Assembly: GCF_949628265.1 (NCBI RefSeq)
Contig: NC_088787.1
Span: 28,014,501-28,078,500 of the forward strand
DNA length: 64,000 nucleotides
Direction: 5' to 3'
DNA from: Cloeon dipterum
Taxonomy: Eukaryota; Arthropoda; Insecta; Ephemeroptera; Baetidae
The position numbers were made by a program, and so were the translations under genes. Under the pieces are notes generated by a model. It was not told the origin of the DNA. It saw nothing but the letters and a program-made list of their open reading frames with translations, and made no database searches. This document shows positions 3,001-57,498 of the stretch, piece after piece (within the stretch, counting starts at the first letter, position 1; each line of letters starts with the position of its first letter).

Positions 3001-3049
3001 CAGACGGGCGGCAATAAACAGCACGACGTGGTGCTTCCTGCTGCCGCTG

Positions 3050-3064
3050 CACACACACACACAC
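3050..3064. repeat. Short CA microsatellite
   Basis: An uninterrupted run of about seven CA dinucleotides. No gene context is visible around it. Confidence 0.9.
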
Positions 3065-6000
3065 GCAAAATGTCAAATTAAGCGGAGCATCAGCCGAGCT
3101 AGGCCCGAAAAAACAGCCCCTGGGCTGTTGGGCGTGATAAATACGTGCGCATTCTTGCCCGTCCGGCCTGATTATCCGGCGTCGGAATAATATTTCGCAG
3201 CAGCCGCGCGGAAAATAGAAAAGTGGCCGGCTGGGGAATGTTGTTAGCTTCCCTATGTGAATCCATCACAACAGCCGCCGGCTCTTTTTCGCTTCCCATG
3301 TTACGAACCTTTGTGTTCTGTATTGCTGATCTGGGAAAATATTTGCCTTGGCGGCTTGGGAAAAGAAAGCGCCAGGACACAGATTGGTGGGCAAAGATTG
3401 CTGCTAATTTGTGGAAAAGAATAGCAAACTCTAAATTTCAGGTTCAAGTTCGATTAATTTAACACGAAAGATAAAACTGAACCTATGCAAAGCGCTAATT
3501 ATAATTGCATTCAAGCACGACTTGTTTGAATTTAAATATTATCCCATCTTGGTATATTTTGCTCTTGGGAATGCTCAATTGACCATGTTTGGAGATATGA
3601 ATATATGATTGATACGTCATCTCATTATAATAAAAAACTGGCTCTTTCCTAGATATGGATGTAAAACTTTAAAAAATAAATCACAAACTATGGGGATTAG
3701 AGTTCTCTTAGACTTACTACTTCAAACCTCTCGCGACCTCTTGCAGCCACGCACATTATCTTGTTTTAGCAAATACCCCGATATATGTTCGGAGTTTAAA
3801 CCAGAGACCAGATTTAAAAGGATCAATAAAGAAGCTAAAGCCGTGGAAATACGACTAAATGACATAATCAAATTTGAGAAAAAATCAGCGCTTTCCCTCT
3901 AACCGACTTTGAAAAAACTCCATTAACGTGCCAAGGGGTGAATAAGCTCCCTTTTCAACCCAGCAGGTCTTTTGAAAGCCATTTGCTCTGCCAGCATCAG
4001 CAGTGGTGGTGGCGAGGTATTCAAAACGAAATTTTCCCGTTTCGCTGATCAATACCGCCTTTCCCATTCAGATTGTGCCGCTTCCGAAGCCATTTTCTCA
4101 ATTAACAGGCAATCAAGGGACGCGCGCGACAGTCAGAATTGCGGTGTGTGGTGGCTTGCTTGCTCTGCACATCAAGGGTAGAAACCGCCGTCTCCGGAAC
4201 TCACCGTCCGGAAGAGGGCATCGATCGGCACCGGCCGCAGCCCTGCCGAAATCGGCCGACTCCACCGCCAAATGGACTCTGCATTTATAATTCACGCCGA
4301 ACACCGATTCTGTGTGTGCCGCTGGACGAATTCAGGCTGGATTGATTTTCTATTCCATTACCGCGTGGTCGTCGGCGCCGCTTGCTCTCCGTTTGCAGTA
4401 AAATTAGATTGAAAGTCAATATTTGACCAGCTATTGGCAAACAATTTCCCATGGCCGGACACTGATATTTTTCACGCAAATTGTTTAATTGTTTGAAGCA
4501 AAATAATCAATACAGCTCACTATTTCATAATTAGAAATCAATAATGTAAATTGCATTTTCTTGTTAGATTTTAATATTTCAGAAGGAGATGTAATTTCAA
4601 TCCAAATTCAGGTTGGAGATAAAAAGGGTATGGGATGCGTTTAAACGCTCTTAACTAACGTGTCCTTTAATTTTTTTAAAATAGGTTTCGAAGCATTGAT
4701 TGAGTCCTTAGACCAAAATTAGAACCTAACTTTTAAAAATACTGTTGTACTGTTTATGGAAAATACTATATTTAGTACCACTTCATACCAACGGAAATCA
4801 ATAACTCATGTCCTGCTTTGAATCAAACGAGAAGTCAATCGACAGTATTTTTCATCCTACATTTCATTGTTCCGAAATTGAAATCTTGACAGCCCGGGTC
4901 AAATTAGGCGTGGATAACGTGATTTTGCGATCTGCCGAGTGGCCGAATCTGCAAGCGCGGCGCGATGAACCGGGGAAAATGGGTAGATCGTTCAGGGGTG
5001 GGCGTGCATGACGCGAGAGGGTGGAAAACGGCCGGCCGAAAAGCGACTAATTACCGTAGTGCGAGGCTCGAAACAGGCAGCAGCAGAGGCCAAAAGTTGA
5101 AATTCGGCCGTTTATATTCATTCGCGGGCACTTTGCATTATTCATGGTGTCGCAGGCGCCGGCCGGGGTGCTCTGCTGCAAATTGAGTCTGCTCTCTCTC
5201 GAGTCGACTGACTGACTTTTCGCTCTCAGCTCGCTTCAAATTGGCTCTTTTCGCTAGAGCGCGGCACCGAGAGCTGCTGATAAATGAATTATACGCCGTA
5301 CACTCCATCTCGATGGTGCGATAAATCTTCCGACCTCGTCTCATCTTCTGCTCCGGCCAAAAGTTGCTGCTTGCGAACCGACTCGCTTACTTTTCTTTTC
5401 CGCCGATTTAATCGATGATTAGTCTGCCGTCGTTTGAGGAACGGCCGCTGTTTTATTTCCGCAGCAACCGCTCTATTGACTCGGAACCCTGCGAGATTGA
5501 AAGTCGCCGCAGCAGCCGCCACCGCGGATTGCTTTGCGAAAATCTCGAGGGGATTTCGTAAAGCTAGGCCCGCGACTCCACCGCAAAATGGGGGTGTGCT
5601 TTGAGGGGTGACTTTCACTTCGAGAAATTCCAGCTCTTTGGACACACACATATATGTCCTATGAGTACTTACGCTTAAAAACCTTACTCGCCTATGAGCT
5701 AGGACAGACATCTCTAATTAAACTTCAATATAAAGCTCTAATCAAATATTCATTCGTCTAAGTCAACTACTTTATCTGAAGAGTAAAATATTATAACAAA
5801 GATTATTTGTAAGATGGTTTTTAATGTTGGTCAGGTTATTTGACATGAACGTGCTATAAGAACGAATTTGTTTGCTCAATTTAAGCTTAAAAAGTGATAA
5901 AAACCAGGGTAAATCCGCGGTTCAGAGAGTTTTCGAGGGAGTTGCAAATGTGATCAAATTAAATGGTTTTTCTGCGCGAGTTAACAATCGCGACACAGTC

Positions 6001-25022: not shown

Positions 25023-26783
25023 ATGGCACAAAGCATGGATTCCATTAAGCTGGAATGGGATCGCTTGCCCAGAGAGGATGTTGAGGCAGAATGCAAATTT
25101 CGTGGCATAGAGGGCGAAAGTTTGTCTATTCTGCGCGATAATTTAAAGAGCGCGATTGAGAATGAAGCGGCCGCAGCGGCTGCTCCTCTGAAGGTAGTAG
25201 GCAAAGAGGCAGTAGATGCAGAAGCTAAATCATTAGCTGAGTATTTAGTTTCGGTGAAACAAGCAGTCAAATTGTGTTGCGAATCGAAAAAATCAAGTGA
25301 GGCACGGAAGCTGAGATCGAGAATCGCGTATGCTTTCATGCGTATGCAGCGCATCGAGCTGTATGACGACAGGTTAGCCGACTCGATTACGAAGCTGAAG
25401 GTCCATTTGCAACAGAGTTTTGACTGGTTGCGAAGCGGAATATTAGATACTGAGGAGCCCAGCACGAGTAACGCAAAATCGCTTTTAGAGACATTAAATG
25501 ATTCATTTGAGCAGCTAGATCAAATTGGTGCACCGAGCGATTTTGGGTTTGCAGCTGCAGCGCACGGGCCGCAAATGCAATACTTTGTTCCCGTGTCGCA
25601 CGGTCAAATTCTAAATCAAGCGTCGTTAGAGAGTCGTCAAAATAGCGGCGTCTTATTGGTGCCAAATTGTAACTCGAAGCGGAGGATTTACACAAGGGAT
25701 TGGAAAGTGTCATTTTCGGGCGAGCAGTCCAGTAAAAGGTCACTGGCTAGTTTCTTGCGGGAAGTCGGACTTAAGCGAAAAGAGAGCAATTTGACAGACT
25801 CCGAGTTTTGGGACACTGCCCATCATTTATTTGAGGGTAGGGCGAAGGCTTGGTTTCTCATGAACCACAAGAAGTGGCACTCGTGGGTGGAATTTGAGCC
25901 GCATCTGATTGCAAATTTCAAACCTCCAGATTATGATGACCGGTTATGGGATCAATTGCGTTCGCGCAGGCAAGCCCGCGACGAAAGGCTTAATTTGTTT
26001 TGTTCGGAAATGGAGACATTGTTTTCCCTGCTTAGCAATCCTCCATCCGACCGGGAAAAATTGGAATTCGTAAGAAAGCGATTGGCCCCATATTGGTTGC
26101 AAAATCTGCCCTGGGGGGACATTCACAGTTTAGATGATTTGCAAGGAAGAGGTTTAAATTTGGAATCAGTGAAGCACTTGATTGACAAGTATAGAGATCC
26201 GCAGGCGCAGGAAGATCCTGTTGAGCCAGAATTTGCGTATAGAGTTAGTGAGAAAGCGGACAAGAAAGATGAGAAAGGGAAAGTTAGTGTGGCAGAATTG
26301 TGTTGTGTTGGTCACACGCCTGGTGAGATTTGCTGTGCTGCACTTTCGTACCGAAATGCAGGCGCGGGCGCTCGTTCAGGTGTTCGGCCGGCGCACGACA
26401 ATTCGCAGCGTGCAAATGCGCATTTTTCTGCTCGCGCGCGGCAGCAGAATGTGGGCAGTAGTGTTTCTAATGGGCAAACTTTGATTCACGCGCCACAGGG
26501 AAATGCATCGCAGCAGTCAAATCTCGCTGTTGCGGCCAAGGTGTGTTGGAACTGTTTCCAGCAGGGACACAGTTTCAGAAATTGCGCACAGCCGCGCAGG
26601 GGAGCTTTCTGCTGGGGATGTGGGAAAGACGGGATCGTGCGTAAAAATTGTATTTCTTGCACGAATTCAAAAAACCCGTCGGGGGTCGCTCGTCCGGTAG
26701 CGCAAAGCGACAGCAAACCCCAAAATGTGAGTCAAGTGCAAGGCGCTCAAACAAATCTTGGCAAAGGCACATCTGGAAACTAA
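25023..26783 (+). CDS. gag: Gag polyprotein of the gypsy element (586 aa)
   Basis: Structural protein that forms the virus-like particle and binds the RNA genome. The start is the first ATG after the leader (AAGATGG context). The middle part (roughly residues 200-400) resembles the retrotransposon gag capsid region, with tryptophan-rich helices. Near the C-terminus are two zinc knuckles. The first, C508 to C521, is a normal CX2CX4HX4C. The second, C530 to C543, keeps the cysteines and spacing but has isoleucine where histidine should be. The 3' part overlaps pol, which is reached by -1 frameshifting at 26669-26675. No stop or frame break is present, so the gene looks functional. Confidence 0.95.
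   Translation: MAQSMDSIKLEWDRLPREDVEAECKFRGIEGESLSILRDNLKSAIENEAAAAAAPLKVVGKEAVDAEAKSLAEYLVSVKQAVKLCCESKKSSEARKLRSRIAYAFMRMQRIELYDDRLADSITKLKVHLQQSFDWLRSGILDTEEPSTSNAKSLLETLNDSFEQLDQIGAPSDFGFAAAAHGPQMQYFVPVSHGQILNQASLESRQNSGVLLVPNCNSKRRIYTRDWKVSFSGEQSSKRSLASFLREVGLKRKESNLTDSEFWDTAHHLFEGRAKAWFLMNHKKWHSWVEFEPHLIANFKPPDYDDRLWDQLRSRRQARDERLNLFCSEMETLFSLLSNPPSDREKLEFVRKRLAPYWLQNLPWGDIHSLDDLQGRGLNLESVKHLIDKYRDPQAQEDPVEPEFAYRVSEKADKKDEKGKVSVAELCCVGHTPGEICCAALSYRNAGAGARSGVRPAHDNSQRANAHFSARARQQNVGSSVSNGQTLIHAPQGNASQQSNLAVAAKVCWNCFQQGHSFRNCAQPRRGAFCWGCGKDGIVRKNCISCTNSKNPSGVARPVAQSDSKPQNVSQVQGAQTNLGKGTSGN
26669..26675 (+). promoter_or_regulatory. -1 ribosomal frameshift slippery site A AAA AAC
   Basis: AAAAAAC lies in the gag frame as A|AAA|AAC, the classic XXXYYYZ arrangement, and pol is in exactly the -1 frame. 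Nine bases downstream, GTCGCT (26685-26690) can pair with AGCGAC (26706-26711) across a 15-base loop. Flanking GGGG (26681-26684) and CCCC (26717-26720) could extend this stem or make it more complex. Spacing and geometry fit known frameshift stimulators. Gag has 37 codons left after this point (26673-26783), so most ribosomes would make Gag and a minority Gag-Pol. Confidence 0.9.
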
Positions 26784-29700
26784 GAACTGATTATGTTCGC
26801 GAAAAATTAGGCGGAATTTTACTGAAATGTAAAGGGGAGACGCTGAGCGAGAGTAGCGATGAACTGGAGGTGGACAAATTTGATAATAGATTATTTTTGC
26901 GTGTGAAAATATTGGATAATCCAGTTGTCGGTTTACTTGATTGCGGCGCTTCTGTTTGCATTTTAGGCAGGTTAGGCAAAGAGCTCATTGATAGATTAGG
27001 CATTAAAATTCAAAATTGTTGTGTCTCTCAAGTAGAGTTAGCTGATAAATCTTGCCAGCCTGTGTTAGGTCAAATAGATTTGCCGATTACGCTGTCAGAC
27101 CAGAATTTCATAATTAAGTCATTAGTTGTGCCATCAATTGAAACTAGTCTAATTTTGGGTCTGAATTTTTGGTTTGAGACTAAATTTGTGCCAGACGTGA
27201 GCTCAGGTCAATATATTTTGGGTGGCAATTCAACCTCCTGCGATAGGGACAATGTGATGCCAAAAATTAGTTTAATTTCAGACTCTTTGCAGAACGATTT
27301 TGAAAATTTTATTGCTCGCATAAAGGCTGATTTTCCTAAAAATTTTGGTCGATGCAATTTCACACAACATCACATTGAGACAGGTGCAGCATCTCCTGTC
27401 AAGAGTAAACAATTTTATTTGCCCCCAAAATCATTAGAAATTTTGCACAAAGAGGTTGATAAGATGCTTGAGTTAGGCGTGATTGAGCCATGTGTCAGTC
27501 CATGGTCATCACCGGTTTTCCTTGTTATGGATCCGGACAAGAAGAAAGAACCAAGATTTGTTATTGATATGAGAGAAGTTAATAAAGTAACGGAAACGGA
27601 TGCGTATGGAGTGCCATTAATTGCGAATATTATTGATAATCTCGCTAATTTTAAGTACTTGTCCACTATCGATTTAAAGAAAAGCTATTGGCAAATTGGG
27701 TTAAATGAGGAGAGCAAAGCCAAAACTGCATTTTTCGTGCCAGGCAGAGGACAGCTGCAATTTACTGTAATTCCGTTTGGTGCGAAGAATAGCGGCCCAG
27801 GATTTGTTCGCGTCATTGATCGAATTGTTCATAGTTCTTGGATTGCGAAATATGTACACACGTATATTGACGATTGTTTCATCGCAACGCCAAGCTACGA
27901 GTTACATAAAGATGTCATTCAAGAATTTTTGCGACTGTTAAAGAATGCGGGAATGACTCCAAATTGGGAGAAAAGCAAATTTCTGAGGGAATCCATAAAA
28001 ATTCTCGGCTATATCCTAGACCAAAATGGATTGCGGACCGATCCGGAGAAAGTCGCATCAATTTTGAATTTGGCACGTCCGAAAAATGAAAAGGGTGTAA
28101 GACAATTTGTTGGCGTAATGTCTTACTACCGCCGCCTGTTTCCCAAGTTGAGTGAGATTATTGAGCCAATAGTGCGACTCACTCGTAAGAAAATTCCGTT
28201 CATGGGGGGAGAAGAGCAAGAAAACGCATGGATAAAGAGTAAAAATATACTCGCATCTGATCTTGTGGTTCGTTTGCCAGATTTCAATAAGCCGTTTATT
28301 CTTTCAACTGATGCTTCAGATTACGGTATTTCAGGCGTATTGTCTCAAATTTTTGATGATGGCGAGAGACCAATTTATTATGTTAGCCGCTTGCTAACTG
28401 ATGCCGAGAAAAATTACCCCACAATGCAGAAAGAGGCTTTAGCGGTAATTTGGTCAATTGAGAAGCTTGAAGGTTACTTGTCTTATAATAAGTTTTTGAT
28501 TGTGACGGATAATAAGCCTCTGAAATTTATTCAGGACCTTAAAAAGCCTAAAGGTCGCCTAGCCAATTGGAAGTTCAAATTGCAACAGTTTGATTTTGAA
28601 ATTATGCATAAGCCAGGAAAATTGAACGTCGTTCCAGATTTACTTTCACGTTCTTTTGCTGATAACGTTAAAGTGGCGCAGTTAAATATTAGAAGTCCAA
28701 TAAATGACCGGTGGTATGTGAATCTCATGAATGCAGTGCAGCAGAATCCAAGTAAATTCCCTTTGTTTAAAGTCGTGCAAGACAGACTGTACAAAATAGT
28801 TAAATCGTGGAATCCGATAGAGGATGCGTGTTACAAATTAGTCGTGCCAAAATCTACACGCAACGAAATAATGCAGAAAATGCACAATCCACCCGAGGCA
28901 GGTCATTTTGGTTTTTTCAAGACGTTCAATAGAATTAGCGAGCAGTATTATTGGCCGAAAATGAAAGCTGACATTTCCAAATTTGTAGCAAATTGTCACC
29001 AATGTCTGGCGCAAAAGCCTTGTCAGTCTGCAAGTGCAGGATTAATGAATTCACGCGTGGTGGATCGCCCCTGGCAAGTTGTTTGCACAGACTTGGTTGG
29101 TCCATTTCCAAGAAGCCTTAAAGGTTTTACTTATGTTTTGTCTTTAGTAGATTTTTTCACTAAATTTGTCATGCTGTTCCCTTTGAAAGACGCCACAGCG
29201 AAATCAGTATGTAACGCTATTGAGTCAGCTATTCAGCAATATGGTGCACCAGAATTATTAGTACAAGATAATGCTAAAATATATCACAGCTCAACATTTA
29301 AAGATATGGCTAGAAAATACAATGCTAGGTTACAGTACACTCCTCGTTATCATCCCGCGGCAAATCCGTCGGAGCGTACGAATAGAGTGTTTGAGACGAT
29401 TTTACGTTGTTACATAAGCGATAACCAGAAGGAATGGTGCCGCAACTTGCCTCAAATTGCGTTTGCTATTAATTCTGCAGTTCATGAAACAACGCGATAT
29501 TCGCCTTATTTCCTTTTTATGGCGCGACAGCCAACCTTTGATGGCTCAGTAGCAATTAAAGAGTGTGATTTTTCAGCGCCTAATTTAATTGAAAATTACG
29601 CAGCTAGATTTCCCAAGTTAAAGAAAATTCATGAATTGGTTAAGGTTAAAATGTTTGAAGCTAGCCAGAAAAATAAACGCCATTACGATTTGCGTCGTCG

Positions 29701-29926
29701 TCCTTCTGATTTCAAAATAGGAGATTTAGTAATGAAAAAGAATTACGCCCTATCAAAGAAAGGTGCTGGAATTACTGCCAAACTTTTGCCATATTTTGTT
29801 GGTCCGTATTTGCTTCAAAGACAAGTGGCAGATAATATTTTCAAGTTAGTTGATCCATCTAATCATTCTGTTAGTTTCGGGGAATTTCATGTGAAGGACT
29901 TAAAACACGCAGGCCAAAGACAATAA
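26669..29926 (+). CDS. pol: Pol polyprotein (protease, reverse transcriptase, RNase H, integrase)
   Basis: Expressed as Gag-Pol through the -1 frameshift; the frame is open back to 26648 and its first in-frame ATG is not needed. Domains in order: aspartic protease with a DCGAS active site near 26940; reverse transcriptase with YIDD at about 27863; RNase H with an STDASD motif near 28310; integrase with an HHCC zinc module (about 28875-29010) and a D,D,E core (D near 29091, D near 29268, E near 29372); and a GPY/F-type C-terminal module near 29790-29810. No chromodomain is visible. About 1085 residues follow the slip site, normal for Ty3/gypsy without env. There are no internal stops or missing catalytic residues. 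Confidence 0.96.
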   Translation, partial: KKPVGGRSSGSAKRQQTPKCESSARRSNKSWQRHIWKLRTDYVREKLGGILLKCKGETLSESSDELEVDKFDNRLFLRVKILDNPVVGLLDCGASVCILGRLGKELIDRLGIKIQNCCVSQVELADKSCQPVLGQIDLPITLSDQNFIIKSLVVPSIETSLILGLNFWFETKFVPDVSSGQYILGGNSTSCDRDNVMPKISLISDSLQNDFENFIARIKADFPKNFGRCNFTQHHIETGAASPVKSKQFYLPPKSLEILHKEVDKMLELGVIEPCVSPWSSPVFLVMDPDKKKEPRFVIDMREVNKVTETDAYGVPLIANIIDNLANFKYLSTIDLKKSYWQIGLNEESKAKTAFFVPGRGQLQFTVIPFGAKNSGPGFVRVIDRIVHSSWIAKYVHTYIDDCFIATPSYELHKDVIQEFLRLLKNAGMTPNWEKSKFLRESIKILGYILDQNGLRTDPEKVASILNLARPKNEKGVRQFVGVMSYYRRLFPKLSEIIEPIVRLTRKKIPFMGGEEQENAWIKSKNILASDLVVRLPDFNKPFILSTDASDYGISGVLSQIFDDGERPIYYVSRLLTDAEKNYPTMQKEALAVIWSIEKLEGYLSYNKFLIVTDNKPLKFIQDLKKPKGRLANWKFKLQQFDFEIMHKPGKLNVVPDLLSRSFADNVKVAQLNIRSPINDRWYVNLMNAVQQNPSKFPLFKVVQDRLYKIVKSWNPIEDACYKLVVPKSTRNEIMQKMHNPPEAGHFGFFKTFNRISEQYYWPKMKADISKFVANCHQCLAQKPCQSASAGLMNSRVVDRPWQVVCTDLVGPFPRSLKGFTYVLSLVDFFTKFVMLFPLKDATAKSVCNAIESAIQQYGAPELLVQDNAKIYHSSTFKDMARKYNARLQYTPRYHPAANPSERTNRVFETILRCYISDNQKEWCRNLPQIAFAINSAVHETTRYSPYFLFMARQPTFDGSVAIKECDFSAPNLIENYAARFPKLKKIHELVKVKMFEASQKNKRHYDLRRRPSDFKIGDLVMKKNYALSKKGAGITAKLLPYFVGPYLLQRQVADNIFKLVDPSNHSVSFGEFHVKDLKHAGQRQ

Positions 29927-35392: not shown

Positions 35393-35396
35393 TTAA
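35393..35396. repeat. Left TTAA target site of the DNA transposon
   Basis: TTAA abuts the left inverted repeat, and the same TTAA abuts the right one (44760-44763). TTAA duplication is typical of the Kolobok and piggyBac superfamilies. Confidence 0.9.
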
Positions 35397-35581
35397 ACCA
35401 ATTGGCAAATTTGTACCATTTCTCTTCACAATAATATAGATTAGGACAAGTAGAATCGAATGACATATCTTAAAAATGCATCATGCATCGAAAAAATGTT
35501 CAAAAAAGCAAAATAAAATATGTACCTTTTTGAAATTGGCGCCGCAGCGAGTGTTAAAAGAGGTGTTAACGTTCTCGCAAC

Positions 35582-35764
35582 ATGGCCGCCGAACGACTGC
35601 GCGCTCCCCGTGGTTACACGGTAGCACATTCACGTCAACAACAGCGTTTTAACAGTTCTAAGAGTTTTCTTCTAGTTCAAAAAGACATTCTGTGCACCGA
35701 TATTCTCATTAAAAATATAAAAACACGTAAATTGGGTCGCATCAGACACCTAAAAGCCAAATAA
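35582..35764 (+). CDS. Small basic frame in left TIR (60 aa), hypothetical
   Basis: The ATG lies in a good context (AACATGGCC) and opens a 60-codon frame rich in Arg, Lys and Gln. The identical frame is in the right arm at 44392-44574 on the minus strand. Identity between arms is explained by their common origin and is not evidence of selection. I do not recognise the product. It could be the first coding exon of a TIR-driven transcript, or it could be chance. Confidence 0.3.
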   Translation: MAAERLRAPRGYTVAHSRQQQRFNSSKSFLLVQKDILCTDILIKNIKTRKLGRIRHLKAK

Positions 35765-35774
35765 TCGGTACCAC

Positions 35775-36107
35775 ATGTTTCACTATAAGTCGTTTCGTGA
35801 GTATGAAAAAGTGGAAAAAGTAAACAACGTCAATACCGTAAAGATTTTTCGACGCAGAAAGAATTTGGACATCAAGAAACTCAACAAACAACGTGTGAAG
35901 AACATTTTGAGGTCAAGCGGTGCCTTTCTAGCTGAAATAAATGTCAGACTCGAATCTGGAGCGTGTTTTCTTGCTGGCAGGTGTGTGACGCCAAAACAAG
36001 TTTTGGAGAAAATCGTTTATTGTCCGAGTAATTTCAGAATCAGCAATGCGTGGACAGCCTGGTGTGAAGCTGCACGTGTCCAAGAGCAGCCCAGAAATGG
36101 TAAATGA
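35775..36107 (+). CDS. Second small frame in left TIR (110 aa), hypothetical
   Basis: Starts ten bases after the previous frame, in another phase, and is duplicated at 44049-44381 on the minus strand. The product is basic in its first half, with a Cys-containing C-terminal half. I recognise no family. A potential donor (GTAAAT) lies at 36099, just before the diverged first unit of the splice-site array. The two frames could be remnants of a captured host gene. Confidence 0.3.
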   Translation: MFHYKSFREYEKVEKVNNVNTVKIFRRRKNLDIKKLNKQRVKNILRSSGAFLAEINVRLESGACFLAGRCVTPKQVLEKIVYCPSNFRISNAWTAWCEAARVQEQPRNGK

Positions 36108-36207
36108 CGCTGGACGAGCTCTTTGTTCGACCAGCGACAAGTGTTCTGCCAGAAGAGAATTGAGTCCATGGGCGGTTGTTGCACCAGGATTTGCATGGAA
36201 TGGTGCG

Positions 36208-37797
36208 TGCCTGTCAGGTGAGTCAGGGGTGACAGTGGTTGTAACCATTTATTTGATTTATTTTCAATTTTAGGCCATTTTTGATCTGGCTGACTGTTGT
36301 TCGACTAGCCACAAGAGTTGCGTCTGGACCAAATTTAGTCAATGAGCAGTTGAGGCAACAGGATTGGCATAGACTGATGCCTGCCTGTCAGGTGAGTCAG
36401 GGTTGACAGTGGTTGTAACCATTTATTTGATTTATTTTCAATTTTAGGCCATTTTTGATGCAGCTGACTGTTGTTCGACTAGCCAAAAGAGTTGCGTCTG
36501 GACCAAATTTAGTCAATGAGCAGTTGAGGCAACAGGATTGGCATAGACTGATGCCTGCCTGTCAGGTGAGTCAGGGTTGACAGTGGTTGTAACCATTTAT
36601 TTGATTTATTTTCAATTTTAGGCCATTTTTGATGCAGCTGACTGACTGTTCGACTAGCCAAAAGAGTTGCGTCTGGACCAAATTTAGTCAATGAGCAGTT
36701 GAGGCAACAGGATTGGCATAGACTGATGCCTGCCTGTCAGGTGAGTCAGGGTTGACAGTGGTTGTAACCATTTATTTGATTTATTTTCAATTTTAGGCCA
36801 TTTTTGATCTGGCTGACTGTTGTTCGACTAGCCACAAGAGTTGCGTCTGGACCAAATTTAGTCAATGAGCAGTTGAGGCAACAGGATTGGCATAGACTGA
36901 TGCCTGCCTGTCAGGTGAGTCAGGGTTGACAGTGGTTGTAACCATTTATTTGATTTATTTTCAATTTTAGGCCATTTTTGATCTGGCTGACTGTTGTTCG
37001 ACTAGCCACAAGAGTTGCGTCTGGACCAAATTTAGTCAATGAGCAGTTGAGGCAACAGGATTGGCATAGACTGATGCCTGCCTGTCAGGTGAGTCAGGGT
37101 TGACAGTGGTTGTAACCATTTATTTGATTTATTTTCAATTTTAGGCCATTTTTGATCTGACTGACTGTTGTTCGACTAGCCAAAAGAGTTGCGTCTGGAC
37201 CAAATTTAGTCAATGAGCAGTTGAGGCAACAGGATTGGCATAGACTGATGCCTGCCTGTCAGGTGAGTCAGGGTTGACAGTGGTTGTAACCATTTATTTG
37301 ATTTATTTTCAATTTTAGGCCATTTTTGATCTGACTGACTGTTGTTCGACTAGCCAAAAGAGTTGCGTCTGGACCAAATTTAGTCAATGAGCAGTTGAGG
37401 CAACAGGATTGGCATAAACTGATGCCTGCCTGTCAGGTGAGTCAGGGTTGACAGTGGTTGTAACCATTTATTTGATTTATTTTCAATTTTAGGCCATTTT
37501 TGATGCAGCTGACTGTTGTTCGACTAGCCAAAAGAGTTGCGTCTGGACCAAATTTAGTCAATGAGCAGTTGAGGCAACAGGATTGGCATAAACTGATGCC
37601 TGCCTGTCAGGTGAGTCAGGGTTGACAGTGGTTGTAACCATTTATTTGATTTATTTTCAATTTTAGGCCATTTTTGATGCAGCTGACTGACTGTTCGACT
37701 AGCCAAAAGAGTTGCGTCTGGACCAAATTTAGTCAATGAGCAGTTGAGGCAACAGGATTGGCATAGACTGATGCCTGTCTGTCAGGTGAGTCAGGCC
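36208..37797 (+). repeat. Left tandem array: ~174-bp units each with splice donor and acceptor
   Basis: Ten copies of a donor-bearing unit. Each has a ~118-base exon-like part ending CTGTCAG, then GTGAGTCAGG (strong donor), a 56-base intron-like part, a pyrimidine-rich stretch and TTTTAG|GCC (acceptor). Donors occur at about 36216, 36389, 36563, 36738, 36912, 37086, 37261, 37434, 37608 and 37783. Copies differ by a few bases, mainly around the GCTGACTG segment. The outermost copy is strongly diverged. The exon-like part is open in one frame over 39 codons, but its length is not a multiple of three, so serial splicing would break that frame. Confidence 0.9.
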
Positions 37798-37928
37798 TTG
37801 GTGTGTTTCTAATATGAAACTTCATTATCTACCGGTTTTAAATATTTTTTTTGGTGTAGTGGAAGGTTTAGTTTGAATAAAATAGGTTGTTTTTAGATGC
37901 AATGCCTTTCTTATATAAAGAAAACTTT
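37798..37928. other. Junction between left array and transposase 3' end
   Basis: AT-rich unique sequence. It holds the downstream region of the minus-strand transposase mRNA. No separate gene is seen. Confidence 0.6.
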
Positions 37929-40672
37929 TTATTCAATTTGATGTTCTGCGGCTCTCATTCTGATGTTCCTTCGGAGTTCAAGTTCCTCACGGGATGGAAG
38001 TGGGACACTGTTGATATTCCTAGGGACATCATGCGGGGGGGACAGAATCAGAATTTCCTCCTCTTCTGTTCCTAGAAGACCTGGGCTCTTTGCATACTTT
38101 TCAATCTCCTCCAATAAATTTGCCCTCCACTCATTACACTTTTCCTCGTATTTTGTTTCCAACTGATAGGTCTTTCTCAGTTTTGAGAACGTAGTTTTGG
38201 TTCCAACCGAAGCCCTTCCGGTGTTATGGTTGTGGTCCAAGACCGCAAGAATGGTCTTGAGAAGCATGTTCTCGTAAAAAAAATGGACTCTCTTTGATGC
38301 GTACACAAGAATGACATTATGGAAGCTTTCCAAGTTTCCGGTGTGGACGAAGTGTTTGCAGTGTTTCAGTTGGTTCAAAAATCGCGTATTGTGAGTAACC
38401 TGTTGATTTAAAAATTTTAGTAACTGAAAATAATTATTTGCTAAATTCAACTTTTTTTAATGCTGCAAAGGCAGATTCATCAGTAATCCAATCAATTTTC
38501 GCTTCACTTTCATCCTCATATGTCCTGTGATCGCAGGTTTTTGTTTCTTTTCCTTCTTTCCACTGATGTTTTCCTCGAATGTGATAAAGCATGGAATTCC
38601 ATTTTTCTAATAGGGTATCTGAATCTCCTCCACAAGTGCTGCTAACATGCCAAATGTGGTTTACTATGGCCTCTATCCATCCCTCAATTTGCTTGTGTTT
38701 TTTGGCCACCGCTATTAGTTTTTTCCTCAGCCCTTTGGCCAGATGCCAGACCTATTTAAAAAGTGGAATATTACTTATATATTGCAGCTAGTTTACTTAC
38801 GTCAAAAGCATGCTCGACATCCTTGAAGTTTTCTCGCATCATTTTTGCTACTGAAGGATTCCGATCTGTGCAGAAGATTCGGACTTTACCAACTCCCAAC
38901 TTTTCTACCAGTCTATTGAAAACGTAAGCACAAGATTTAGACTCCATTTCCCCTGGTAGAAATCCCTTTTGCCACAGCACGAAATCGATAATTTTGTTGT
39001 TGAAGTTGCTCATAATCGAGTAGAGGGCATATTTTGCGCTGTGTCCTGGGGAGTCGAAGCGTGCGTCTCCGGACACAACCAAGTCATCTTTACTTTGAAG
39101 ATCTTTGAAAATTTCCTCTCTCATCCTAATCCACGAGTGTCGCAAGATCGGGGCCGTGAAGTTATTGATATGGCTGTAGAACGTTTGATGCGAGAAGAAT
39201 GCGAGTCCAATAGCGTCTGTCATTTTGCGAATAGTTGTGTATCCAATTCCAGCGCAAAAAATAGCTGCAGCCAAGAGAATGTTGAAAATGGGGGTGTTTT
39301 TTTCTTTCGGAGTTGTGCTCCAAGAAAATTGATGGTCATGCTTAAAACACCTTGTGTGATATGTAATCACTGAGCCTACTCTTTTGCGCTCAACGGAATT
39401 TATGCTGGCACACACAGAACAATGTTGCATCAAAGTGTCTAGCTGACAAATGTCCACAATGACAAATTTAATTCCTATCATGTTGCTCTCCAGATCTTCT
39501 TCAGTGAATGATTCGTCTGCAGTGGATACAATTGAGGAATCAAGCTCAGGCTGCTCATAATCATGATCAAGTTCGTCAGCATCATCAAAAATGGTCGAAG
39601 GAGGAGAAGATGGAGGTGATTTGAAAATCTGTCCCCTGTCTGAAGAGTCCGCTGTCTCAGGCACATGGAGAGGAACATTTGATGTTGGTAAGGAGCTATG
39701 GGATGAAGATGTTCCTGCTGAAAACCAAGATGTTGATTTTGACCTTTGCTGGCTAGGTGCACAGCTCTTGGGTTTTTTTACTGGTATATCGGGCTTGTGG
39801 ATCCCTTCAACTACTTTCACTGGAGACAAGATCTTTGGCTCAAACGATTGTTTGCGCTTGGACGTTGTTGGCGCTGGACGAAATGAAATTTGTTCGGAAG
39901 ACGATGAGTCTAATAAGATCAATGCAGCAGGTGACGATGGTGATTCAAGTAATAGCTGGTTAGAAGATGAAGTACTTGCAGTAGGCGTTGTTTTTCCTAT
40001 TTAGATTGATATTTATATAGCTTTAGAGGTCAAGGTAACAAAATTAATTTGAAACATTTTGGTAAGTCATTATTATATTATGCAATGGGTCGTTTGAAAC
40101 AAAATATTATAAACATATAAATAAATCTTAATTAACGTTAAAAGGTTGTATGTATATAAATATGTTTGTTCCGTATGTTAAGTTAAAATATTTTTAAACC
40201 ATTCAGTGCAAAAACCTTATTTATTATATCATAGGAAACCCAAAAAAATTCCCTTCTAATCCATCTTGATTGAAATCATTCCCAAATACAAAAACGTGAT
40301 GAAGTGTTTTATTTATTACCTATCATATTTTGGGTAGGTAATGCAGCTGAGTTGAGTTTGGGTTGTTTTGTCTCATCATCATCTTTCTCAAAATCGTCGT
40401 TCACAAAGTGATCAGAACATACATGTTTGTCAATGATACGGTTGAACTTCCTCCCAACATTTTTTTCCCAATTCTGAGTGCTAATTAATGTACATATTAT
40501 ATAAATTAAAATGTATAATAAGCTAATGATCCATACTAATTGTATGCACATGCTGTTAATATACATAAAATACTCACAGCGTTTGGTCAGAGTATGGAAT
40601 TTTGTAGAAAAATCGCTTTTTTCCACCTTTCCCAGAATAAGCTGAACATACGCAACAACGGCTTCTTCCCAT
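37929..40672 (-). CDS. THAP-domain DDE transposase, Kolobok-like (5 exons, 740 aa)
   Basis: Exons (minus): 40672-40578, 40480-40320, 39996-38801, 38751-38452, 38399-37929; phases agree at every join, giving 2223 nt. Exons 1-2 form a complete THAP zinc domain: C-x2-C at residues 6-9, a KIP motif, the tryptophan, CSDHF, and a terminal AALPT. A serine-rich linker follows, then a Cys/His cluster (CSVC ... C-x2-K-H) around residues 278-305. The DDE core is suggested by D396 (with D400 in GDARFDSPG), D463 (CTDRN) and E608 (HTGNLESFHN), plus FDVWHLAK across the exon 3/4 border. Family members I recall share these motifs. The product would bind the element ends, cut and join at TTAA. The last intron (52 nt) has a weak donor (AAA|GTTGAA); otherwise a frameshift would have to be assumed. 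The stop codon overlaps an AATAAA signal at 37928-37933. Confidence 0.88.
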
Positions 40673-41122
40673 TTTGTATGTATTTCAAAAATCAAACGAC
40701 ACGTCACAATTTTGTTAATTATAGAAAAAGAATGACAGTGGTGTACATCTGGTTCATTTGGTCATCTAGTTCTCCAGCAAATATGATACCCCCACCACTT
40801 GCGTTGCAATAATGAAGGTTTTTAGTATTGAACCCCCTGCAAGCGAGCTCACAATATGTGTATGTGGAAGAAAAACTAGCAAAATATCAGGCTGAAGACA
40901 TCGCCTATTGGCAATCCGTTTGATTATTGATATCAATTGTGTAAGTATATATAATAAATTTCCATCATATTTATAACTTTAGTTCATATTGGATAGAAAT
41001 GCCAAATTTTTCCTGCACCTACATTATCAGAAATAATAAAATGTGTATGTCTAAAGACAGACTTAGAAAATTTGAATTATTCAGAAAATCGAATTAGCTA
41101 TAGCAATTATTTTTTAATTTCC
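40673..41122. promoter_or_regulatory. Divergent promoter region of the transposon's two genes
   Basis: About 450 bases separate the transposase ATG (minus) from the likely ballast-gene start (plus). Divergent transcription from here is the simplest reading. An alternative start for the right-hand gene, ATG at 40807, runs only 28 codons before a stop and would need splicing. No clear TATA element was identified. Confidence 0.5.
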
Positions 41123-41692
41123 ATGGTCACTCAGGAATGCAGAAACTCAATGCTGCGAGGTTGCGATGCTCGGGATCTGGAGCCGATTATGACTCAAGAG
41201 CGAAAATTAGAAAAAGAGCACGAAGAAAATCGTAAAAAGGCTCTAATTGAAAGAGGAAGTCAGGAAGTTCAATTCTGGTGCTCTTGTGAACTGTGCACCA
41301 ATTCAGGATATCCGTTGGAAAATGTGTGCTGCATGGATATGGATGATGGTTATGGAAGTTGGAAACCGAGCATTCGAACCAGATGTATAACCAAGTCAAA
41401 AGGATTCAAGTGTACTGTATTGAACATGCATGTCCTTAGAATGATGAGGCACAATCTCCTAATGTACACTAAAGACAAAGGCCAAAGGGAACGCCTAAAG
41501 TCTAATTCAAACTCATGTAACAGATTCATTGCGTATAAAAATTTTGTGAGTTGGATTTCATCTGGAAAGAAATTAGGAAGGTCAAACAGAATCATTATTC
41601 CTGCATGTGTTGTTAATAAAATCAGGGAAAAGTGGCCTGAAAATTCAGGGATTTACACAGGATTCCGACCCTCAGTTGATATACAAGATTAG
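41123..41692 (+). CDS. P2X7 C-terminal (ballast)-domain protein carried by the transposon (189 aa)
   Basis: The frame is open from 41072; the first ATG is at 41123, but an upstream exon cannot be excluded. After a charged helix (about residues 20-45) comes a Cys-rich module: WCSCELC, an LENVCC pair, CITKS, then a conserved HVL helix, AYKNFVSW, LGRSNRIIIPACVVNKIRE and a terminal YTGF. These features in this order match the cytoplasmic zinc-binding ballast domain at the C-terminus of vertebrate P2X7 receptors (P2RX7_C family). There is no channel domain or membrane segment here. Its role in the transposon is unknown; zinc and nucleic-acid or partner binding are guesses. An AATAAA signal lies at 41723-41728. 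Confidence 0.87.
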   Translation: MVTQECRNSMLRGCDARDLEPIMTQERKLEKEHEENRKKALIERGSQEVQFWCSCELCTNSGYPLENVCCMDMDDGYGSWKPSIRTRCITKSKGFKCTVLNMHVLRMMRHNLLMYTKDKGQRERLKSNSNSCNRFIAYKNFVSWISSGKKLGRSNRIIIPACVVNKIREKWPENSGIYTGFRPSVDIQD

Positions 41693-41961
41693 CTATTATT
41701 TAATTTCATTGTAAAGAGTTCAAATAAAAAAACATAAAGCAATGTATTTCATGTAAATTTTATTGTTATATATAACTAGACCCTGAATTTATAATAGGAG
41801 CTATAAACAAGTTTTGAATATACTTGAACTATGTCCTGTTCTGACATAAAAACCAATTTCTTTATATCCTGTAGCCGACCCTGCCCTTCCAATCCTTTCT
41901 TACTGGCAAGAACTCGACTCTTGTCGCTTGTCGAGCAAAGAGCAAGCTGGATATAAAATGG
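41693..41961. other. Ballast-gene 3' region and a diverged array unit
   Basis: Holds the 3' UTR and polyadenylation signal of the ballast gene. From about 41880 to 41960 it contains a partial, strongly diverged array unit (reading inward on the minus strand) that resembles the outermost unit of the arrays more than the inner ones. Confidence 0.6.
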
Positions 41962-43951
41962 CCTAAAATTGAAAATAAATCAAATAAATGGTTACAACCA
42001 CTGTCAACCCTGACTCACCTGACAGGCAGGCATCAGTCTATGCCAATCCTGTTGCCTCAACTGCTCATTGACTAAATTTGGTCCAGACGCAACTCTTTTG
42101 GCTAGTCGAACAGTCAGTCAGCTGCATCAAAAATGGCCTAAAATTGAAAATAAATCAAATAAATGGTTACAACCACTGTCAACCCTGACTCACCTGACAG
42201 GCAGGCATCAGTCTATGCCAATCCTGTTGCCTCAACTGCTCATTGACTAAATTTGGTCCAGACGCAACTCTTTTGGCTAGTCGAACAGTCAGTCAGCTGC
42301 ATCAAAAATGGCCTAAAATTGAAAATAAATCAAATAAATGGTTACAACCACTGTCAACCCTGACTCACCTGACAGGCAGGCATCAGTCTATGCCAATCCT
42401 GTTGCCTCAACTGCTCATTGACTAAATTTGGTCCAGACGCAACTCTTTTGGCTAGTCGAACAGTCAGTCAGCTGCATCAAAAATGGCCTAAAATTGAAAA
42501 TAAATCAAATAAATGGTTACAACCACTGTCAACCCTGACTCACCTGACAGGCAGGCATCAGTCTATGCCAATCCTGTTGCCTCAACTGCTCATTGACTAA
42601 ATTTGGTCCAGACGCAACTCTTTTGGCTAGTCGAACAACAGTCAGTCAGATCAAAAATGGCCTAAAATTGAAAATAAATCAAATAAATGGTTACAACCAC
42701 TGTCAACCCTGACTCACCTGACAGGCAGGCATCAGTTTATGCCAATCCTGTTGCCTCAACTGCTCATTGACTAAATTTGGTCCAGACGCAACTCTTTTGG
42801 CTAGTCGAACAACAGTCAGTCAGATCAAAAATGGCCTAAAATTGAAAATAAATCAAATAAATGGTTACAACCACTGTCAACCCTGACTCACCTGACAGGC
42901 AGGCATCAGTCTATGCCAATCCTGTTGCCTCAACTGCTCATTGACTAAATTTGGTCCAGACGCAACTCTTTTGGCTAGTCGAACAGTCAGTCAGCTGCAT
43001 CAAAAATGGCCTAAAATTGAAAAAAAATCAAATAAATGGTTACAACCACTGTCAACCCTGACTCACCTGACAGGCAGGCATCAGTCTATGCCAATCCTGT
43101 TGCCTCAACTGCTCATTGACTAAATTTGGTCCAGACGCAACTCTTTTGGCTAGTCGAACAACAGTCAGTCAGATCAAAAATGGCCTAAAATTGAAAATAA
43201 ATCAAATAAATGGTTACAACCACTGTCAACCCTGACTCACCTGACAGGCAGGCATCAGTCTATGCCAATCCTGTTGCCTCAACTGCTCATTGACTAAATT
43301 TGGTCCAGACGCAACTCTTTTGGCTAGTCGAACAGTCAGTCAGCTGCATCAAAAATGGCCTAAAATTGAAAATAAATCAAATAAATGGTTACAACCACTG
43401 TCAACCCTGACTCACCTGACAGGCAGGCATCAGTCTATGCCAATCCTGTTGCCTCAACTGCTCATTGACTAAATTTGGTCCAGACGCAACTCTTTTGGCT
43501 AGTCGAACAGTCAGTCAGCTGCATCAAAAATGGCCTAAAATTGAAAATAAATCAAATAAATGGTTACAACCACTGTCAACCCTGACTCACCTGACAGGCA
43601 GGCATCAGTCTATGCCAATCCTGTTGCCTCAACTGCTCATTGACTAAATTTGGTCCAGACGCAACTCTTTTGGCTAGTCGAACAACAGTCAGCTGCATCA
43701 AAAATGGCCTAAAATTGAAAATAAATCAAATAAATGGTTACAACCACTGTCAACCCTGACTCACCTGACAGGCAGGCATCAGTCTATGCCAATCCTGTTG
43801 CCTCAACTGCTCATTGACTAAATTTGGTCCAGACGCAACTCTTGTGGCTAGTCGAACAACAGTCAGCCAGATCAAAAATGGCCTAAAATTGAAAATAAAT
43901 CAAATAAATGGTTACAACCACTGTCACCCCTGACTCACCTGACAGGCACGC
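41962..43951 (-). repeat. Right tandem array: 12 units with splice donor and acceptor
   Basis: Same unit as the left array in inverse orientation. Donors (seen as CACCTGACAG on the plus strand) recur every 174-176 bases, twelve times, from about 42015 to 43938. Left and right arrays therefore differ by two copies, although the outer arms are identical. Units vary mainly between two forms of the GCTGACTG segment. Confidence 0.92.
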
Positions 43952-44759
43952 ACCATTCCATGCAAATCCTGGTGCAACAACCGCCCATGGACTCAATTCT
44001 CTTCTGGCAGAACACTTGTCGCTGGTCGAACAAAGAGCTCGTCCAGCGTCATTTACCATTTCTGGGCTGCTCTTGGACACGTGCAGCTTCACACCAGGCT
44101 GTCCACGCATTGCTGATTCTGAAATTACTCGGACAATAAACGATTTTCTCCAAAACTTGTTTTGGCGTCACACACCTGCCAGCAAGAAAACACGCTCCAG
44201 ATTCGAGTCTGACATTTATTTCAGCTAGAAAGGCACCGCTTGACCTCAAAATGTTCTTCACACGTTGTTTGTTGAGTTTCTTGATGTCCAAATTCTTTCT
44301 GCGTCGAAAAATCTTTACGGTATTGACGTTGTTTACTTTTTCCACTTTTTCATACTCACGAAACGACTTATAGTGAAACATGTGGTACCGATTATTTGGC
44401 TTTTAGGTGTCTGATGCGACCCAATTTACGTGTTTTTATATTTTTAATGAGAATATCGGTGCACAGAATGTCTTTTTGAACTAGAAGAAAACTCTTAGAA
44501 CTGTTAAAACGCTGTTGTTGACGTGAATGTGCTACCGTGTAACCACGGGGAGCGCGCAGTCGTTCGGCGGCCATGTTGCGAGAACGTTAACACCTCTTTT
44601 AACACTCGCTGCGGCGCCAATTTCAAAAAGGTACATATTTTATTTTGCTTTTTTGAACATTTTTTCGATGCATGATGCATTTTTAAGATATGTCATTCGA
44701 TTCTACTTGTCCTAATCTATATTATTGTGAAGAGAAATGGTACAAATTTGCCAATTGGT
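41962..44759 (-). repeat. Right terminal inverted repeat (about 2.8 kb)
   Basis: Mirror image of the left arm, with the array inside and the unique part (about 44040-44759) outside. It contains the inverted copies of the two small frames at 44392-44574 and 44049-44381. The TTAA at 44760-44763 follows directly. Confidence 0.9.
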
Positions 44760-44763
44760 TTAA

Positions 44764-54436: not shown

Positions 54437-57400
54437 ATGCGACACCATCATGCAGCCGTCTGGATTTTCACCGTGCTGATAGCGGTAAGAAAAATTAAAT
54501 ATTTTGCACTGAACCATTGCCACTTCAACAGGCGCTAAATTAACTAAAATGAATCATAGGCTTCAAAATCGAAAATATATATACAAATGAATTCGATCAT
54601 TTTTCATTAAACATCCGCTAGATAGGAAATTTTGATCGCAATATAATATTCAGAAGATGAGTTACAATTACAAGTAGTTTAAAGATAAAACCACCTGAAA
54701 ATAATTTATTTTTATTATTTAATAGGAATAAATCCCAAAAACATTCACCTAATGAGTAATTTTTAGCTGTCTGGAAAAACGTTTACACAAGAGTATCAAT
54801 ATGGCAATTCTGAAGAAGACTACAAAGAGTCTGGGAGCGATTCTGATGGTTTGCTGTAATTTTTGAACTGCTCTCATGAGAGTGATTTGTTCTTTTGTAG
54901 GCTTTGCTGTAGCGATTGATCAATCGGCGTATGATTTAAACTTCTAATAGTTTTTTAAATGTTAAATTTTTTACCTTTAATCAAAATGATGTAGTTCTGG
55001 AGGTAAGATATTAGCTAGCTATTAATTAATTAAAAACTAATGTGTCGAACAGCAACTGGTGCAACCTGTCCAACTTGCCCGATAAGTCCTAGTTGCAATA
55101 CTAAGGTAAGTGTTTGTTTTGATTTTTTGGTTAATTTCCTTAAATATACCGGAAATTGATTGTTTTAATACTACAAGCTCTAGCAAAGATCGTTTTAGTT
55201 TTATTAGCACGTAAATAAGTAGGTCATGTTATGCAACTGATTTGCAGGCAGAATCTTTCAATGCGTCATCTGGACAAAGCTTAAGTGAGCGAATATGCAT
55301 GCTTGCAACAATTTGTGAAACAAACCAATTTCCACAGATATGGCGATCAGAGGGAATTTCCGAAATGGTTGCAACAAAACATATTTCTTCAGCAGTGAAT
55401 CTGTATAAATCAACTAAAACTTTTGCACGGGTTTATAAAAATTCCAAACAGGCGAAATTTGAGGAAGCGCAATCTAAGTGTTGCTCCTTGGGAATGCGGA
55501 TTCTAAGCGTTGAGTCGAAAGATGAATTGAATTGCATTAGTCGAGTTCGGAAGGGTAAATATAAGGTTCATTGTAATTTTCTTACGTTTGAGCGAGATGA
55601 GTAGAAAAAACGGACGACTATGATTTTTACTGGACAAGTGGACGATTGTCGAGCGATTGCAGCCAGTCGGTTGCTTGGTGTGTAACCGGCAGAGTTGCTG
55701 ACAAAGATCCTTTGTGGAAGAAAACTGGTTCGACTAACCAATACGGCGATTGTGTTGTTTTGAAGTTGTACGGCGCCTCTACTGAATCTAACCAACTATC
55801 TGGTCTCGACCGCATGGCTTGCGACAAAAGAATGTCTTTCATTTGCGAGGTTACGAAAATTTTAATGATTACGCCTTCCAGTTGATAATTGTGGTATTTA
55901 ACAGCCCAGAGCAGTAAAACACGCCTTGCAAGATGTGGCACGTTCCAAACAAGGAGGCTGTTCACAGCCTGTGTGTCCAGTCATTACTTGCAAAAGAGGA
56001 GTAATTAATAAAATAATTAGTTGGAACCAACTAATTTAACTCTAATTACAGAATTACTTTGACTCAATCGGAAGATTGAATTGTAATAATATACACCAGC
56101 AATATATTAACTATACCTTACTTAAACACATTTTAAACCAGTGCCTGAATCATTGGGATCGCTTCAAATCATCAAAGGACAGATGTACGCCATCAGCAAG
56201 GTCAAAGTAAATGCAAATAATTTGTACTGGCCCCTTGGCTACTAAGGGAATGAATTAGAAAACCTTCAAAGAGGCGGCAGAAGCGTGCTGCTCAATTGAC
56301 ATGCGTCTTATCAGTATCGAAAACAAGGCTAAAGGAAACATGCTAGAGGATTATCTGGAAATTAACGAGCAATACTGGACGAGCGGATCAGACTTAGGGT
56401 GCGAGGGTAAATTTGGATGGTGCAGTCAGGGTGGGGTGGAGTTTGGAGACAACATTCCGTGGCTCTACAATGAGCCCAACAACGGCGATGGAAACGAGAA
56501 CTGCGTAAATATCGACATCATTGCATGGGACAGCGTGAAATTCAAGCTCAATGACAACAACTGCGACAAAAAAATGAAATTCATTTGTGAAGTATTGACC
56601 AAAAGGTATTAAAAAAGGTTCGAGCTTACTTTTAAATATTCTCAGAGCAAAGTAATGGACATCAACCCAAGGGTCACCACCTTGGCACCACCTGTCGTTC
56701 CGACCATTGCGCATTGCACCAAAGGTGTTTGTCCTGTTCACGATTGCAACACGAAATCGGTTTGAATAATGAGTTTCAACAGTTCTAGCACTTATTCAAA
56801 ATTATTTCATAGGACCTTGAAGTATCATTTGATGATATGGAATTTGGTACGCATTAAGTTTTATTTGAAAACGTGTATTTTCAAAATTAAAGTTTGAAGT
56901 GAATTTGACATTTGGGGTCCCTCGGAAAGCTTGTGGAAAAACATTCTACTTCAGCAAAAATAGGGTTTGCCTATTAGTACTTGATTGAAGGAAAACGTAT
57001 GGAGAAAAATTGAATTTGCAGACAACTTTTGCCAACGCCGGCAGGGCATGTGAATGCTCAATGAAACTAAAACCGATTTCTATTGAAACTGATGCAGATA
57101 TCAAGTGCTTCACTGACGTTGTCCGCCGTAAAATATATTTTGTTATTAGCACGAATTCCCAATCGCAACCTTTCAACTTTGCAGAGGAGTACCGCAAGAA
57201 GAACGCGACTTTGTGGACCTCGGGCAGCGATGAAATGTGTCCTGGCAAGTACACGTGGTGCAACACAGACAAGCTGATGGCCCCTGGGGCAAAGTGGCGT
57301 ATTGGGGAGCCCAGCAAGAGCAACTGGATGCAGGCCTGTATTGCGATTCACATAGGAAACAACATGGACGAGCTCAACGGCCTGGCTGACTACAAATGCA

Positions 57401-57498
57401 CTCGGAAATTCCGTTTTGTCTGCGAGGTGAGTGGATTGTTTAAACAGTTAAAAAACAGAATAAATAATTTCGACCAATTTTAGTTGATCAACACCTAA
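54437..57498 (+). CDS. Secreted multi-domain C-type lectin, three CTLDs (16 exons, 642 aa)
   Basis: Exons: 54437-54484, 54767-54848, 54901-54928, 54995-55002, 55053-55105, 55248-55554, 55605-55849, 55905-56000, 56052-56082, 56142-56206, 56259-56591, 56646-56759, 56813-56846, 56900-56964, 57022-57426, 57484-57498; all phases agree (1929 nt). A short signal peptide is followed by three repeats of a Cys-rich linker (C-P-x-C ... C-x-T/R-K style) and a C-type lectin domain. Each CTLD shows the paired-Cys segment (CCS/CEC), WTSG and a terminal F-I/V-CE. CTLD2 has an EPN sugar-binding triad (393-395), which suggests mannose-type ligands; CTLD3 has EPS, and CTLD1 has none. Such proteins recognise glycans in haemolymph or gut. 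The weakest joins are the 8-nt and 31-nt exons and the acceptor at 56900. Confidence 0.8.
54995..55002 (+). other. Predicted 8-nt micro-exon of the lectin gene
   Basis: TTCTGGAG sits between a TAG acceptor and GTAAGA donor. Including it takes the phase from 2 to 1, exactly what is needed to join exons 3 and 5 in frame; skipping it shifts the frame into a stop. It is predicted from sequence only. Confidence 0.6.

Follow-up and report, generated by a model that had tools for sequence, protein, structure and literature searches.

Kol0 transposons of the Kolobok superfamily encode a transposase and a second protein, KolX, which matches residues 476-595 of human P2X7, a fold that holds two zinc ions and has seven cysteines conserved (Kojima & Bao 2022, PMC9587614). 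The same authors propose that the P2X7 gene arose when a P2X4-like gene was fused with KolX, and in the literature searched the name KolX was found in their paper alone. For the Kolobok superfamily they give a C/DxxH motif between the second D and the E, common to the P-element superfamily, and the background of the paper states the termini as 5'-RR ... YY-3'. As examples of Kol0 hosts that source names vertebrates, annelids, cnidarians and sponges; arthropods appear in its list for the Kolobok superfamily. The host of the window (the whole stretch of 64,000 nucleotides analysed here) is an insect. The paper also reports piggyBac families with a KolX-like C-terminal part, which are likewise TTAA transposons with a related protein. 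However, those parts are said to be without most of the seven cysteines.

Short proteins that, like KolX, end in a Cys-rich ballast domain have been described as ballast/ZCD proteins and NANOR (PTHR36981), with a true bug among their hosts (Rump et al. 2020, PMC7016195). In these proteins, as in KolX, the matches to R546 and R578 of P2X7 are conserved, and beyond deuterostomes only these two are reported as kept among the five GDP contacts. In that paper the ballast genes are treated as metazoan host genes, whereas the window presents such a gene in a mobile context. An Ixodes gene model is said there to carry a 'TAHP' domain, and the main text contains neither 'transpos' nor 'THAP'.

Since Kojima & Bao (2022) already describe both Kol0 and KolX, the element in the window is an insect member of the published Kol0 kind, KolX included, and represents a well-preserved example rather than a discovery. 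It shares with Kol0 (Kolobok-1_XT type; PMC9587614) the TTAA duplications, a DDE transposase with DxxH and a KolX with the ballast fold. The two inferences drawn in the preliminary description, that the ballast protein belongs to the transposon and that the P2X7 domain comes from a mobile element, are thus already in print in that work.

Structure and gene content of the element

The whole element spans 9,363 bp (35397-44759) with TTAA at either side, and its features are collected in Table 1. The placement of the ballast gene within the inverted repeats of a TTAA transposon, and its divergence from a THAP transposase, were noted in the preliminary description; both held when examined, the long arms being real and the transposase, with THAP and DDE matches, lying on the opposite strand, head-to-head with KolX.

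Table 1. Features of the Kolobok element in the window
Feature	Position	Strand	Description
TTAA target-site duplication, left	35393..35396	.	directly outside tip ACCAATTGGC
Left terminal inverted repeat	35397..37812	+	outer ~0.76 kb, then ~9.4 copies of 174-bp unit (36158-37795)
Transposase, DDE part	37929..40000	-	predicted exons 40000-38801, 38751-38452, 38399-37929
THAP domain of transposase	40309..40707	-	PF05485 27.4 bits (cut-off 23.9); second half matched (CSDHF)
KolX gene (P2X7 ballast homologue)	41123..41692	+	ORF, Pfam and PDB sequence matches
Right terminal inverted repeat	41917..44759	-	~11.7 array units (41955-43998) and outer part identical to left
TTAA target-site duplication, right	44760..44763	.	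flank of right end

The KolX reading frame encodes 189 aa and sits inside a longer open frame starting at 40997; translation may instead begin with the second Met, at 41150, which follows an AG resembling a splice acceptor. The identification of this protein as carrying the P2X7 ballast domain was borne out by the profile search, with 72.4 bits against Pfam PF20478 P2RX7_C (cut-off 23.5, E 6.2e-20, profile positions 52-192), and the KolX of a second family found in the genome (see below) reached 87.3 bits; it is by this sequence homology that a second protein with the ballast fold is recognised here. Against PDB sequences KolX matched P2X7 chains only (4 of 4 distinct sequences, E up to 0.1), and a profile of the two families again retrieved P2X7 alone (4 of 4, E up to 10; best E 7e-10), aligned to P2X7 residues 471-592. 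These E-values rule out chance likeness. Thus, in sequence, KolX is homologous to the cytoplasmic ballast of P2X7, from which it differs in being free-standing, with neither channel nor membrane part.

The Cys-rich, zinc-site-like pattern pointed out in the preliminary description agrees with P2X7 for the most part. In the HMMER columns C53, C55, C58, C88 and C162 of KolX correspond to C477, C479, C482, C506 and C572 of P2X7, and KolX, like P2X7, has a CC pair (C69-C70), although its spacing differs, so that all seven zinc-coordinating cysteines of the putative zinc site are accounted for, five aligned by HMMER and the last two paired by eye only. The zinc-site cysteines are kept in the KolX of both families. 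Among the GDP-contact residues (rat P2X7 R546, H547, R574, R578 and K583) two of five are kept, R134 (R546) and R168 (R578), both arginines being present in both families, and the other three are replaced (H547 by F, R574 by V, K583 by E).

Searches for relatives elsewhere were negative. KolX gave five candidates in a protein database search, none at E <= 0.001, and the two-family alignment gave 307 candidates, again none; none of the 114 pattern matches in viral contigs and none of the 80 in prokaryote contigs was confirmed.

The predicted transposase has introns of 49 and 52 bp with GT-AG borders, at the identical two places in the second family. Position 40000 marks where its frame opens and no more than that, and the THAP domain is split by at least one intron; the extent of the first exon is approximate. 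The motifs in the window family are GDARFDS, CTDRN, DVWH and NLESFHN, with CSDRN and QLESFHN as the variants of the second and fourth in the other family. The DDE region scored 36.7 bits against PF20700 'Mutator-like transposase' (cut-off 26.5). When the transposase pieces were compared with Pfam, THAP and PF20700 were over the cut-off and there was no piggyBac match, which sets the element apart from the piggyBac families with KolX-like parts. A THAP domain together with a C/DxxH-type DDE is also what the P-element transposase has. The P element, however, belongs to a different superfamily and has a guanine-nucleotide site within its transposase itself.

The arms of the element are about 2.4 and 2.8 kb long, with no difference between left and right over the outer 714 bp, and the TTAA directly outside the tip recurs on the right side and in both sister copies on C3. 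The array units measure 174-175 bp in the window element, and the arms of the second family hold a tandem array of 182-bp units (L014, positions 1390-4199). Arms of at least 2.4 kb with 174/182-bp arrays, present in both families, are not mentioned for Kol0 in the available text of PMC9587614. When the units of the two families were compared in either orientation, no sequence in common beyond chance was found.

By motif, the window family may be assigned to Kolobok from its TTAA duplications and its DDE with DVWH, a form of C/DxxH. It departs from the published terminus rule (PMC9587614), as its tip starts with 5'-AC instead of 5'-RR, while the second family, homologous in both genes, follows the rule with 5'-AG. 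Therefore, the Kolobok membership of the window family rests on the other features.

Some further observations concern the arms. The left-array units (36218-37786) contain a splice-donor-like CAGGTGAGT ten times and an acceptor-like TTTTAGG nine times, the units of the window family carrying CAG/GTGAGT and TTTTAG/G. A repeat-exon gene was rejected as an explanation of the arrays: the implied exons would be 118 or 119 nt long, with loss of frame, and the unit of the second family is unrelated. A 110-aa ORF is present twice, once per arm (35775-36107, plus strand; 44049-44381, minus strand). It was rejected as a third gene, having no Pfam match and no signal of selection against copy I: compared with the left arm of that copy there were two synonymous and five non-synonymous changes and three gapped codons, with 21% synonymous expected, and compared with the right piece four synonymous and 22 non-synonymous changes, counts inflated by an unrelated 5' stretch.

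Elsewhere in the window there is a gypsy-type LTR retrotransposon (25023-29926, plus strand) whose gag and pol frames are long and open, pol being recognised by eye, and an ORF at 57010-57483 (plus strand) with a weak C-type lectin match, 21.9 bits against a Pfam cut-off of 22.6. In the genome, five exon matches to insect odorant receptors were found at E <= 0.001, among them an Orco-like 7tm_6 gene, which suggests a winged insect as host; an exact five-fold TTAGG was not found.

Copies, relics and divergence in the genome

The KolX protein was searched against the 190-Mb genome, and the match counts are lower bounds. At least nine matches were found. Three KolX genes are identical (window, C3:11.488 Mb and C3:16.504 Mb), the second family has two copies (C1:35.014 and C1:38.378 Mb), and the others are four pieces in three relic places. 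Over a 4,104-bp core the two sister copies differ from the window at four positions and one position; with cores so nearly identical, the elements moved recently. There are five full elements, with TTAA at all ten ends; measured between their ends they are about 9.4, 13.0, 9.4, 12.6 and 17.7 kb long. The number of occurrences of a 13-base array motif varies by copy and by arm (10/12, 15/27 and 8/13 in the first three copies), so array length explains much of the difference in length among these three. Arrays are present in both arms of all five full elements, the fifth judged from self-comparison only.

The association of ballast gene and transposase was borne out in this genome, as every intact KolX found (5 of 5) lies beside a THAP-DDE transposase in head-to-head order. 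The preliminary description had named copies lacking the gene, and ballast genes apart from transposons, as evidence against such an association. What was found is mixed. At C2:30.786 Mb a non-autonomous TIR element, flanked by TTAA on either side and containing a nested gypsy-type element, has lost KolX, and also its transposase; the three broken relics (C1:31.756, C5:0.992 and C2:37.02 Mb) stand alone, with no transposase or Kolobok end detectable in 14.9 kb around each. The intact genes, in contrast, are all in elements. The end sequence also matches five shorter pieces at four other places, with no KolX or transposase within 1.1-2.2 kb around each. A MITE-like relative of the arm ends, ~0.4 kb long and near-palindromic (self-complement 74%), lies at C3:2828329-2828723 without TTAA flanks.

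Seen from the transposase, five of the seven loci found (8 matches) have a KolX. The Kolobok-type transposase loci at C2:36.976 and C2:36.990 Mb have none in the surrounding 6.0 and 3.4 kb, the nearest KolX relic being ~30 kb past the latter. A transposase without KolX may therefore exist, although both loci are possibly relics. The transposase at C2:36.976 Mb is a third, diverged Kolobok-like one (38% identity), with a weak THAP half-domain match (21.1 bits, cut-off 23.9).

Between the two families the KolX protein is 56% identical, and 57% over 178 aligned codons. The transposase is 55% identical over 406 codons, a stretch that begins 60 codons ahead of the first catalytic D and runs to the end, so that the diverged N-terminal part is excluded. 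By NG86, dN is 0.37 for KolX and 0.36 for the transposase; dS is saturated for both and has no value. Codon positions 1, 2 and 3 are kept at 67, 72 and 43% in KolX and at 64, 75 and 37% in the transposase. As KolX and the core of the transposase have diverged to the same degree while dS is saturated, this comparison of two families indicates that KolX is under purifying selection. Such constraint, with divergence equal to that of the transposase, is as expected of a working partner, not of cargo.

Possible roles of KolX

Taken together, we consider it highly probable that the window holds a Kolobok transposon of the Kol0 kind that has two genes and was active recently, in which KolX is a partner for efficient transposition and not passenger cargo. 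Judging from its family and the TTAA flanks, the transposase would cut the element out and paste it into TTAA. KolX would be needed for this to occur efficiently, probably joining the complex on the element ends as a small protein built around zinc; the candidate steps are DNA binding, pairing of the ends, nuclear import and nucleotide supply.

Among these roles we would give most weight to an assembly or DNA-binding helper. It is possible, and we put it forward tentatively, that KolX binds DNA or the transposase and helps in assembly or nuclear import, and the 174/182-bp arrays could be its binding sites. In Harbinger elements a Myb-like second protein serves as such a helper. The head-to-head layout of the two genes is consistent with this, as are the zinc-site cysteines kept in both families and the occurrence of arrays in both arms of five full elements though the unit sequences are unrelated. 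However, no site common to the units of the two families was found.

A second and rather unlikely role would be that the Kolobok transposase receives a guanine nucleotide from KolX in trans, whereas in the P-element THAP transposase a GTP-binding insertion domain serves this purpose in cis. Pairing, cleavage and strand transfer by that transposase depend on GTP, a requirement called unique (PMC7776569), and the P2X7 ballast binds a guanosine nucleotide (PMC7016195, PMC9859053); thus, KolX might bring a guanine nucleotide to the transposase. The ballast has a guanine-nucleotide site and a dinuclear zinc site, whose function is described as not known (PMC9859053). A THAP domain is present in the two enzymes and the C/DxxH motif in the two superfamilies, and R134 and R168 are kept in both KolX families. 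However, as only two of the five contact residues are kept, the probability is low, and the arginines that are kept may have a structural role. In the literature searched, nucleotide binding was not seen reported for any KolX, nor was an earlier proposal linking KolX to a guanine nucleotide, the latter by searches not aimed directly at it.

A reading of KolX as passive cargo, or as a gene that the transposon acquired from a host, is very unlikely. The broken KolX genes at three places without a transposase nearby and the two transposase loci without KolX would agree with it. However, the two families keep KolX in the same place, its divergence equals that of the transposase core with dS saturated, and each intact KolX found (5 of 5) lies within an element, the search counts being lower bounds. 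The opposite direction, in which a vertebrate-type P2X7 gene was the source of the transposon's domain, is extremely improbable: no point in its favour was found, ballast-type proteins are reported for groups ranging from sponges to arthropods whereas P2X7 is assigned to jawed vertebrates (PMC7016195), and a search of the genome gave no P2X receptor match, a weak argument as the control genomes are silent too.

Significance for Kolobok elements and P2X7

To the published claim that the ballast domain is a transposon accessory protein, this locus adds an insect case with near-identical young copies, the long arms of ~174/182-bp arrays, the equal divergence of both genes and the guanine-nucleotide idea. 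Rump et al. (PMC7016195) report that ballast genes are linked with two markers in hosts ranging from sponges to molluscs and sea urchin; such a link could simply reflect an adjoining transposase. If KolX did supply a guanine nucleotide, P2X7 would have inherited its guanine-nucleotide site from a transposition cofactor. Moreover, since one genome holds full-length open copies of two families, a transposition assay could test what KolX does and, with that, what the P2X7 ballast originally served for.
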